From Lachnospiraceae bacterium (GTDB lineage Bacteria > Bacillota > Clostridia > Lachnospirales > Lachnospiraceae), in assembly GCA_023663945.1 (NCBI GenBank), contig JAMPGL010000040.1, forward strand, positions 1 through 33,093: a stretch of DNA of 33,093 nucleotides, read 5' to 3'. Position 1 is the stretch's first letter, and the number at the start of each line of letters is the position of its first letter. Below are positions 10,556 to 31,623 of this stretch, piece by piece. The notes beneath the pieces were generated by a model. It saw only the letters and a program-made list of their open reading frames with translations, made no database searches and was not told the DNA's origin. The position numbers and the translations under genes were made by a program.

Positions 10556-10601
10556 TATAGTTAACGACATTAATAATTGCCATTTCGGTCTTGTAAAAGC
10601 T
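10556..10601 (+). repeat. Dispersed 46-bp element, copy 1
   Basis: A perfect 46-base match to 31578-31623 in the same orientation. It begins TATAGTTAACGACATTAATA and ends CTTGTAAAAGCT. It lies between the dehydrogenase stop and the shared terminator. Part of it with flanking sequence forms TTGCCA (10577-10582), 18 bases, TATAAT (10601-10606), a promoter-like arrangement pointing into the terminator. It encodes nothing evident. Confidence 0.95.
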
Positions 10602-10614
10602 ATAATTAAAAACG

Positions 10615-10660
10615 GACCTCCCAATCGTCAGAGTTTATTCTGGCTAGGGAGGTCATTTTC
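10615..10660. terminator. Bidirectional terminator between convergent genes
   Basis: GACCTCCC (10615-10622) pairs with GGGAGGTC (10647-10654), and the inner bases extend the stem with G-U pairs (GTCAGAG against TTCTGGC). CATTTTCTT follows on the plus strand; TTTTTAATTATA follows on the minus strand. It can stop both the dehydrogenase transcript and the convergent PAS-GGDEF transcript. Confidence 0.85.
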
Positions 10661-10707
10661 TTACATAAGTAGGAAATTTCTTCAAAGACTGGAAGAACCG
10701 AAGGTTC

Positions 10708-11949
10708 TTATGCAATAGAGGTTTTCTTCTTGCTCTTTTCTTCGTACATCAAACGGTCGGCTTCCCCGATCAGCGCGTCCATGATCAGTGCGCCCTGCCC
10801 GGATTGGGAAGTGCCGATGCTTGCGGATATATTTTTAAGATGTTCGTCTTTGGCAAAAGTGGTATCAAGCTGTTCCTGAAGCCAGAGGCGCGTTTGTTCT
10901 ACCTCTTCTTTGGAGCATTCGCCCACCTTGACCACCACAAACTCATCGCCTCCGATTCGGGCAATCATATCATCCGGCATACATTTTTGAAGAATTTGAG
11001 TGGTGGTGAGGAGAGCGCGGTCTCCTTCCTGATGCCCGTAACGGTCATTGACGGTCTTAAAGTTGTCAAGGTCAAGGTAAAACACGGTCAGAGGATTGTC
11101 GCTTTCCTGTTCCATAAACTGATAAATATATCTGCGGTTGTAAAGCCCTGTAAGGAAGTCGGTATTGGCGTTATTAAGGATCATCTGCTCGTAAATCCGT
11201 TCCTGAGTGATATCTGTAGCGACGCCCACGGTTCCCATAACGCTGCCGTCCAAGTCGAACAGGGGAGATTTATAGGTTTTGAGCTGGCGCATCTCATCCC
11301 GAATCTTTACGGTCTCATCAAAGATGCAGGTCTCCTTTTTGTTCATAACTTCAAACTCGGACTCCATGCAGATAAATTCGCCTTTGGCATATTCATCGGG
11401 TTCAATATCCCAGATGTAATAGTGCCCTCTGCCCTCCACCTGTTCCATGGTCTTGTTGACTGCCTGACAAAAGCTTTCGTTGACCTTTTTGTGAACGCCG
11501 TCCTTATCCTTATACCAGATTAGATGGGGAACGCCGTTGATGGTAGCGTCAAGGTAATTCTGGCATAACCAATAATCCTTGCTCATCTTGTAGGCGTGAA
11601 ACCATTTGGAAAGGCGGAAAGAAATCTCCTTCCCGGAAAGGGGGAGCGTCCAAATGTCAAAGGAATCCGGAAGCTTTTCAAACGGCAGCAGAGCCGTCTG
11701 TTCCTTATCCGCAAGAAGGATTACCTGAGAATCCGGCTTTTGACAGGTTAACAGGGTGTTAAGCACGGCAGATTCTCCGCCTTTTATATTCATAAAAATC
11801 ACATCTGCACTGCCGGCAGATGCTTCGGAAAGAGTGCCGCTTTCTACAAATTGATAGGTAAATTGTTCCGGCGGCGTCATTGCGCGGACCATTTGAATAA
11901 AGCTGCTGTCACAGCCGACAAGATAGAAACAAACATTGCAGTGATACAT
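10708..11949 (-). CDS. PAS-GGDEF diguanylate cyclase with receiver-like N-terminus
   Basis: Read on the minus strand, the product is 413 residues from ATG 11949. This start is chosen because GGAGG lies 8 bases before it; an in-frame TTG at 11970 lacks a site. Residues 1 to about 115 look like a degenerate receiver-type alpha/beta domain (YLVGCDSSFIQMV, DVIFMNIKG). A PAS domain follows (GVPHLIWYKDKDGV to GVATDITQER). The GGDEF domain starts at TDFLTGLYNRR and has RIGGDEF (333-337), so it should make c-di-GMP. The inhibitory site reads MPDD instead of RxxD, so product feedback is probably lost. No membrane segments: a cytoplasmic enzyme. It has its own divergent promoter. Confidence 0.87.
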   Translation of the reverse strand: MYHCNVCFYLVGCDSSFIQMVRAMTPPEQFTYQFVESGTLSEASAGSADVIFMNIKGGESAVLNTLLTCQKPDSQVILLADKEQTALLPFEKLPDSFDIWTLPLSGKEISFRLSKWFHAYKMSKDYWLCQNYLDATINGVPHLIWYKDKDGVHKKVNESFCQAVNKTMEQVEGRGHYYIWDIEPDEYAKGEFICMESEFEVMNKKETCIFDETVKIRDEMRQLKTYKSPLFDLDGSVMGTVGVATDITQERIYEQMILNNANTDFLTGLYNRRYIYQFMEQESDNPLTVFYLDLDNFKTVNDRYGHQEGDRALLTTTQILQKCMPDDMIARIGGDEFVVVKVGECSKEEVEQTRLWLQEQLDTTFAKDEHLKNISASIGTSQSGQGALIMDALIGEADRLMYEEKSKKKTSIA

Positions 11950-11988
11950 GGTGGCTTCCTCCGATGTCAAATATCAATAATTAAGCAC

Positions 11989-30600: not shown

Positions 30601-31496
30601 AAAAGGTTTTCCCTACCAAGGCGGAAAAGGGCACGGATCCGGTTGAAAGCAGCCTGTACCATGCGGATTCTATTTATATCTGTAAAAATAAAACTGCCAG
30701 ACCCACTGTGTTTATTCCGGTATTTCCGGGCACCAACTGTGAATATGACAGCGTCAGGGCATTTGAGCGTGCAGGTGCGGATGTGATCACCAGAGTATTT
30801 AAGAATCGGTCGGCGGAGGATATCCGAAGTTCCGTGGAAATTTTTGAAAAGGATATTGTAAAGGCGCAGATTATCATGTTTCCGGGCGGTTTTTCAGCCG
30901 GTGACGAGCCTGACGGCAGTGCAAAGTTCTTTGCAACTGCTTTCCAAAATGAGCATATAAAGGAAGCGGTTATGCATCTTTTAAATGAGAGAGACGGTCT
31001 TGCGCTGGGAATCTGCAACGGTTTTCAGGCACTGATCAAGCTGGGACTGGTGCCTTATGGCGAGATTTTGGGACAGAAGGAGGATTCTCCGACCCTGACC
31101 TTTAATACCATTAACCGCCATATTTCCAAGATGGTATATACAAAAGTCGTATCTGATAAATCGCCTTGGCTTAAAAATGCACAGCTTGGCGGTGTGTATG
31201 CAACACCGGCATCCCACGGAGAAGGAAGATTTGTGGCTTCCAAGGAGTGGATAGAGAAGCTGTTTGCAAACGGTCAGGCGGCAACACAGTACTGTGACTT
31301 AGATGGAAATGTTTCCATGGATGAGGAGTGGAACATCAACGGTTCTTACTGCGCAATAGAAGGAATCACTTCGCCTGACGGCAGATGCTTTGGAAAGATG
31401 GCTCATGCGGAGCGCCGCGGAGAGGGCGTTGCAATCAATATCTACGGGGAGCACGACATGAAGATTTTTGAGTCTGGAGTGGAGTATTTTAAGTAA
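27672..31496 (+). CDS. purL: Phosphoribosylformylglycinamidine synthase (single-chain, clade II)
   Basis: The enzyme converts FGAR and glutamine to FGAM with ATP, the fourth step of purine synthesis. The 1274-residue chain carries the synthetase part and a fused C-terminal glutaminase. Visible landmarks are [50 protein letters not shown] and GGKDSMSG. In the glutaminase, Cys1115 ([11 protein letters not shown]), His1182 and Glu1184 (ASHGEGRF) form the triad. Length and fusion match clade II of Firmicutes. ATG 27672 is chosen because the conserved [16 protein letters not shown] start follows it and GGAGGAAG lies about 11 bases upstream. The frame extends upstream through the promoter, but that part is leader. 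No other pur gene is adjacent. Confidence 0.96.
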   Translation: [1274 protein letters not shown]

Positions 31497-31508
31497 AAGC
31501 TAAAATTT

Positions 31509-31547
31509 ATGCATTTTACCATTCAAAATTGCATCTTACATTTTTTT
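31509..31547 (+). terminator. purL terminator
   Basis: ATGCATTTT (31509-31517) pairs with AAAATTGCAT (31525-31534) with one bulged A, followed by CTTACATTTTTTT. It is a modest AT-rich hairpin with a good T-tract. Confidence 0.6.
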
Positions 31548-31577
31548 GGTTGATTTCTTTTGTATATGATGTATTTT

Positions 31578-31623
31578 TATAGTTAACGACATTAATAATT
31601 GCCATTTCGGTCTTGTAAAAGCT
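31578..31623 (+). repeat. Dispersed 46-bp element, copy 2
   Basis: Identical over 46 bases to 10556-10601, same orientation, 21,022 bases apart. It lies between the purL terminator and the promoter of the lipase-like gene. Its right end is also the left arm of an inverted repeat (31611-31645) that is not present at copy 1. Confidence 0.95.

Follow-up and report, generated by a model that had tools for sequence, protein, structure and literature searches.

A palindromic repeat in a Lachnospiraceae genome, most probably a miniature transposable element of the IS630/Tc1-mariner type

Why does a sequence of 46 bp occur twice without a single difference in one bacterial contig, 21 kb apart, and why does part of it return in inverted orientation in front of purL? 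We addressed this question in a stretch of 33,093 nucleotides from Lachnospiraceae bacterium (GenBank assembly GCA_023663945.1, contig JAMPGL010000040.1), which in its whole length is called the window here. Self-comparison of the window confirmed what a preliminary description of the DNA, made from the sequence by itself, had noted: positions 10556-10601 equal positions 31578-31623 across 46 bases, and 27612-27639 matches 28 of these bases exactly in reverse complement. The similarity of the first and third copies extends to 51 bases (10551-10601 and 31573-31623, 98%). At up to three mismatches the 28-mer is present three times in the window, far above the mean of 0.00 in 100 dinucleotide-preserving shuffles.

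Of the three origins that the preliminary description had offered, namely a recent mobile repeat, a protein-binding site and a regulatory RNA segment, the first has stood; a regulatory site of purine genes is not supported. We are highly confident that the repeat is a non-autonomous miniature inverted-repeat transposable element (MITE) of the IS630/Tc1-mariner type, a new example of a well-known kind and not a purine switch, because of its copy number with varied flanks, its ends, the duplication of TA, the empty sites in related genomes and IS630-type loci with matching ends. As such, an unexplained repeat becomes a mobile element whose ends, target and empty sites are defined and for which an enzyme family can be proposed.

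Extent, copies and distribution of the element

In the window's own genome (G000; 3.74 Mb in 107 contigs, 94% complete) the 28-mer was found at 23 places with up to three mismatches, compared to none for a reversed control. When the flanks were aligned, most copies ran on to a common right end. The 46-mer, which had been taken for the element itself, is the left part of a 103-bp imperfect palindrome with the layout TA-(TAGTTAACGACAT...ATGTCGTTTACTA)-TA, which begins TATAGTTAACGACATTAATAATTGCC and finishes GTTATGTCGTTTACTATA and has the terminal inverted repeats TATAGTTAACGACAT and TATAGTAAACGACAT. Its length is 101 bp with one TA and 103 bp with the duplicated TA. The 103-mer matched at least 41 distinct places of the genome at E≤1e-3, at least 27 of which cover 95 or more of the 103 positions; both counts are lower bounds, with matches on both strands of one place merged and 40 of 79 first-look candidates scored. 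Thirteen of these near-full copies show 96-100% identity and the other 14 show 74-92%, a spread that looks like a recent burst over older copies. The 15-mer end gave 94 matches, compared to four for its control. Among the 60 flanks of 30 loci (L024-L053) there was a single similar pair (45 bp, 98%), which is another repeat. The genome search and flank alignment that the preliminary description had proposed yielded many copies, differing flanks and target duplications. As RNA, one copy (L024) folds into one long hairpin from either strand (-53.3 and -40.6 kcal/mol, z -11.7 and -8.3). When 34 loci were compared mechanically with open reading frames (ORFs) of at least 100 amino acids, 19 overlapped none and 15 overlapped one or more.

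The 103-mer matched 10 of 60 genomes: its own, nine of 35 others of the genus (G006 and G033 partially) and none of 24 from other families. At the level of the family 4 of 299 genomes matched: besides the own genome, these were a second member of the genus and two genomes of other genera with weak partial matches. In a species-level genome collection, which may leave out the window's own records, the exact 28-mer occurs in one record, titled Blautia sp., and on the basis of this title the host genus is probably Blautia. These data also bear on the concern that the 46-mer might be confined to this place as an artefact of assembly or duplication. Perfect identity at two places of one contig would fit such an artefact, whereas dozens of copies, many of them diverged, with different flanks and on many contigs, together with the matches in nine other genomes of the genus and in the named Blautia record, refute it and leave its probability practically nil.

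At one place (G000:C38:23435-23571, L007/L019) a complete element of 103 bp is followed head to tail by a short form of 36 bp, with a common TA; here one element has inserted beside another.

Insertion sites and candidate transposases

If the element is mobile, related genomes should contain sites without it. For 12 full copies, 100-base flanks were joined without the element and searched in the close genomes G031 and G032. Seven flank sets gave matches across the joint, and none of these seven places contains the element. Two matched without spanning it, L026 with one flank and L029 with both flanks at places about 1.4 kb apart, and for three there was no match in G031 or G032. The cleanest sites lack 101 bp and retain a single TA: relatives carry one TA where the own genome carries TA-element-TA (L024 versus L146; L032 versus L142/L143). 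The procedure was repeated for the three copies of the window together with seven short forms, now in G031, G032 and G428, the genome of the named Blautia record. Again seven flank sets, here of ten, span the joint, with the element absent in all. A single TA was seen at the empty sites of the short forms L066, L061 and L085; the loci that show it in this test are L200/L201, L203/L204 and L215. The window copy at 31578..31664 is absent at the matching place of G428 (L202); the copy at 10556 gave a flank match on one side only. From the single TA at empty sites it follows that insertion duplicates TA. The doubling of TA is characteristic of the IS630/Tc1-mariner group, and we take it here as the signature of transposition of this type.

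Another class of mobile palindromes has to be weighed here, namely REP/BIME-like sequences mobilised by a RAYT (IS200/IS605-like) enzyme. Palindromic sequence, many copies and absence at the orthologous sites of relatives are expected from these as well. However, they do not account for the TA duplication on insertion (to our knowledge, REP insertion is not expected to duplicate TA), nor for terminal inverted repeats in common with IS630-family loci, and we regard this origin as extremely improbable.

Which enzyme could have moved the element? The IS630 model NF033545 matches 21 of the 37 genomes of the genus, eight of them above the cut-off. We screened 30 IS630 loci for the 15-base end at up to three mismatches, and one of them, L164 in G022, carries the end on both sides of a transposase. 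It is an element of 967 bp (1132-2098) with a DDE_3 domain (E 1.3e-27), and its two ends match the right end of the MITE at 15/15 and 13/15 bases. A TA flanks it on each side, and it splits a regulator-like frame, whose downstream piece is Peripla_BP_3 (E 9.7e-13) and whose upstream piece by itself matches nothing. In the order, 3 of 392 genomes contain relatives of the L164 transposase at E≤1e-25. Among these relatives is L198 in a genome of another family (G314), which has a helix-turn-helix ORF1 and a DDE ORF2, which match both halves of an IS630 transposase (NF033545, 7e-22 and 4e-18), and its left end equals the right end of the MITE at 23 of 24 bases. Finally, a complete but more distant IS630 (L191, 351 amino acids), found in IMG/VR, has ends of similar style that are more diverged, its right end being read by eye. 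From these similarities we infer that the transposases of these loci, or a close relative, would have moved the MITE.

Other candidate partners were set aside. In plasmids and phages, the IS630 relatives have less than 60% identity across the matched part; IMG/VR yielded four loci, L191 among them. At up to three mismatches the ends were not found in the IS630 loci L159-L163, of which L161 and L163 are truncated close to the end of a contig. In the search for an autonomous copy within the host genome, one pair of inverted ends with a spacing of about 1 kb was picked out by eye (C66: 14567 and 15619). One of these ends belongs to a 103-bp copy; the stretch between them holds an ORF of 255 amino acids, by eye alpha/beta hydrolase-like, and no transposase.

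Taken together, the following course of events might be proposed. A transposase of the IS630 family would recognise the ends TAGTTAACGACAT and TAGTAAACGACAT; 103 bp is far too short to encode a transposase, and the enzyme would be supplied in trans by another element to this non-autonomous one. It would paste the element into TA and thereby double the TA. Many inserted copies would then decay by internal deletion, probably by slippage across the hairpin, and the copies in the purL leader and behind the dehydrogenase gene would be other products of deletion.

Several observations weigh against this interpretation. In the own genome, at 94% completeness, no IS630 transposase was found and NF033545 has no match, and G022, the genus genome with the partner element, has no match to the MITE; among the genomes searched, MITE and partner enzyme were not found in one genome. 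The MITE-bearing genomes G001, G019, G028 and G029 do have IS630 loci (L160-L163), and these are without the ends. Both partners are imperfect: L164 is damaged, its front half being without a Pfam match, and no right end was found for L198. Furthermore, divergence near the break obscures the exact joint at five of the seven sites that correspond to full copies; these five show the absence of the element.

On a contig in IMG/VR we noted a related element (L194, 1704-1806) whose ends are the same but whose palindromic core differs. Given this element, such MITEs seem to form a wider family.

The window copies and the purL leader

The gene contexts given in the preliminary description were borne out by domain and family matches: the copy at 10556 lies behind a zinc-type dehydrogenase gene (PF08240, PF00107), that at 27606 in the purL leader and that at 31578 behind purL (TIGR01857, 1762 bits). 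All three are damaged, two by internal deletion and one by loss of its right end (Table 1). The first copy matches positions 1-46 of the 103-mer query at 100%, and a CT is common to both sides of its break, as read by eye against the 103-bp consensus. The second holds the inverted 28-mer, and its final TA has mutated to AA. In the third the central hairpin is intact. A strong hairpin had been denied for every copy, which is wrong for this one over its full length, since 31576-31664 folds with -32.8 kcal/mol (z -6.7).

Table 1. Copies of the element and associated features in the window
Feature	Position	Strand	Remarks
Copy of the putative MITE, internal deletion, 49 bp	10556..10604	+	left 46 bases, then terminal TATA
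Possible remnant of an element end, ATGTTATTAACTATA, 2 mismatches	14104..14118	-	borderline, may be chance
purL promoter-like site, TTGCAA-16-TATAAT	27565..27592	+	agrees with the consensus at 10 of 12 positions
Short form, 36 bp, in the purL 5' leader	27606..27641	-	left 28 bases and right terminal ACTATA
Copy of the putative MITE, truncated on the right by ~16 bp, 87 bp remaining	31578..31664	+	query 1-85, 99%

One copy thus stands between the promoter-like boxes and the ribosome-binding site of purL and another just past the gene, a position that might suggest that purine genes have here a conserved site of regulation or an RNA element. The purL leader and start were matched in 35 of the 37 genomes of the genus, the own genome included, and 29 of the 34 other leaders were aligned, all oriented. 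TTGCAA and TATAAT boxes at a spacing of 14-18 are kept in 23 of these 29 leaders and GGAGG ahead of the start in 27, while the element end at up to three mismatches is found in none of them within 400 bases upstream. At four mismatches it appears in three of the sequences, and for two of these the match falls within the leader (L140 at -13, L141 at -61), a threshold at which the window itself also gives a chance match. The copy is equally absent from the two closest relatives. It is an insertion seen in this genome alone and, because it is absent from 29 of 29 inspected genus leaders, no conserved purine regulatory site; copies fixed upstream of orthologous purine genes, the alternative raised earlier, did not appear among these purL leaders. 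Nor is there a match to any Rfam family in the whole window at gathering scores, and the predicted fold of the purL leader does not surpass that of shuffled sequences (z -0.63). Hence we consider a purine element very improbable, and the case cautions against taking the purL-leader copy for a purine switch.

The promoter-like site lies just upstream of the short form, and the 36-bp remnant is probably located in the 5' untranslated region of purL. The promoter scan as such, with two sites compared to a shuffle mean of 1.2, is not evidence by itself. A structure that hides the purL ribosome-binding site was set aside on the basis of the leader fold, and no claim is made for it. No terminator-like sites, with a GC-rich stem and a T-run behind it, and hence no intrinsic terminator, were found in 27350-27750 and 31450-31800, which cover two of the three copies. 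For a promoter-like TATAGT at 31661-31666 (three sites, shuffle mean 1.4) no claim is made. Any effects on purL or its neighbours may be incidental. Deletion or duplication of the 21-kb segment by recombination between the direct copies, as suggested earlier, is possible in principle; the pair at 10556 and 31578 is not special in this respect because dozens of other copies are present in the genome.

Further features were noted. The end-like 15-mer at 14104-14118 stands alone, upstream of an ORF at 14138. A tandem array of units of about 34 bp (GCTTGGAATGCATTGGAA...) occupies window positions 4550-4680, between genes that by eye encode a thioredoxin-like protein and a ferredoxin-type membrane protein. 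In the stretches of the own genome that we examined, a second dispersed repeat (AACCAGCCTTAGCTGGTTCTAAGCATGACTTTGACT and beyond) is present at four distinct places (L028 2521, L031 1234, L027 1668 on the minus strand, L053 1237 on the minus strand, and overlapping loci). It lies within about 1 kb of MITE copies; the stretches were chosen around MITEs, so this closeness is no evidence.

Short forms and comparison with known systems

The copies form a size series of 103, 49, 36, 35, 30 and 22 bp, and the 22-bp form is exact at four loci. How might these short forms have arisen? The longest direct repeat within the 103-mer is TAGTTA, at positions 3-8 and 84-89. Deletion between its two copies gives TATAGTTATGTCGTTTACTATA, the exact reverse complement of the observed 22-mer, and this exact prediction suggests collapse by slippage. 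The 36-bp forms break inside the similar blocks TGCCATTT and TGTCGTTT at points that vary by copy, as judged by eye. In vitro, DNA polymerases, in this case archaeal enzymes, have been described to slip on a hairpin template with short direct repeats (PMC4134008). It is probable, judging from the repeats, that the short forms arise by replication slippage across the hairpin. As a point against it, no locus was found at which one genome carries the full copy and another the short form, and slippage is argued here from sequence logic. Alternatively, forms of 22-36 bp might be mobile units that inserted as such, as the single-TA empty sites of L066, L061 and L085 and the four identical 22-mers could indicate. 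However, the 22-mer lacks most of one terminal repeat and is the exact product of deletion at the longest direct repeat, and 30 bp would leave two ends too little room to pair in cis as they usually do. We therefore consider independent mobility of the short forms unlikely.

At L085 (1501-1522; G000:C54:15253) a 22-bp scar stands directly before a ribosome-binding site, where G031 has one TA; by eye, the product of the gene behind it is alanine racemase-like. At least one 22-bp scar hence lies directly in the leader of a gene. It might be speculated that the hairpin collapses repeatedly at its built-in 6-bp repeat to a standard 22-bp scar (TATAGTAAACGACATAACTATA) and that some scars are adopted as binding or start sites, a scenario that we rate as quite improbable. 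If true, a vanished transposon would seed a shared regulatory site. The forms also provide a natural size series for studying how palindromic elements are erased from genomes.

How does the element compare with known systems? In a review (PMC2229807), bacterial MITEs are defined as non-autonomous elements below 200 bp with terminal inverted repeats and target duplication. The element described here has 103 bp, encodes no protein, occupies at least 41 dispersed places, has terminal inverted repeats and duplicates TA. Its ends are common to IS630-family elements (both ends of L164, the left end of L198), as is expected of an IS630-derived MITE. We found no description of this element, or of MITEs in Blautia or Lachnospiraceae, in the open-access literature, which is weak evidence of absence.

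According to the same review, the enterobacterial ERIC (127 bp) is likewise small, with TA ends, terminal repeats and target duplication, and is co-transcribed with its neighbours in Yersinia; its contiguous terminal repeats are shorter (7 bp), and no transposase partner is named for it there (PMC2229807). The Correia or NEMIS (CREE) elements of Neisseria, of about 107 and 155 bp, are described there with TA ends, target duplication, terminal repeats and transcripts that form stem-loops (PMC2229807). They belong to an unrelated host and differ in size by a 50-bp internal sequence, whereas sizes here run down to 22 bp. A further close system is RUP, the repeat unit of pneumococcus, in Streptococcus pneumoniae. 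Unlike with RUP, there is no IS630 gene found in the own genome of our element, and many collapsed short forms are present; RUP is reported as intergenic (PMC2229807), while 15 of our 34 loci overlap a mechanical ORF. In other respects the two correspond: RUP measures 107 bp compared to 103 bp here, both have TA at their ends and in their target, RUP has inverted terminal repeats in common with IS630-Spn1 just as our element matches ends of the IS630 family, and the high conservation between copies reported for RUP (PMC2229807) is seen here as well. In conclusion, the element is likened to RUP by description and would work like RUP in another host, with no claim of membership.

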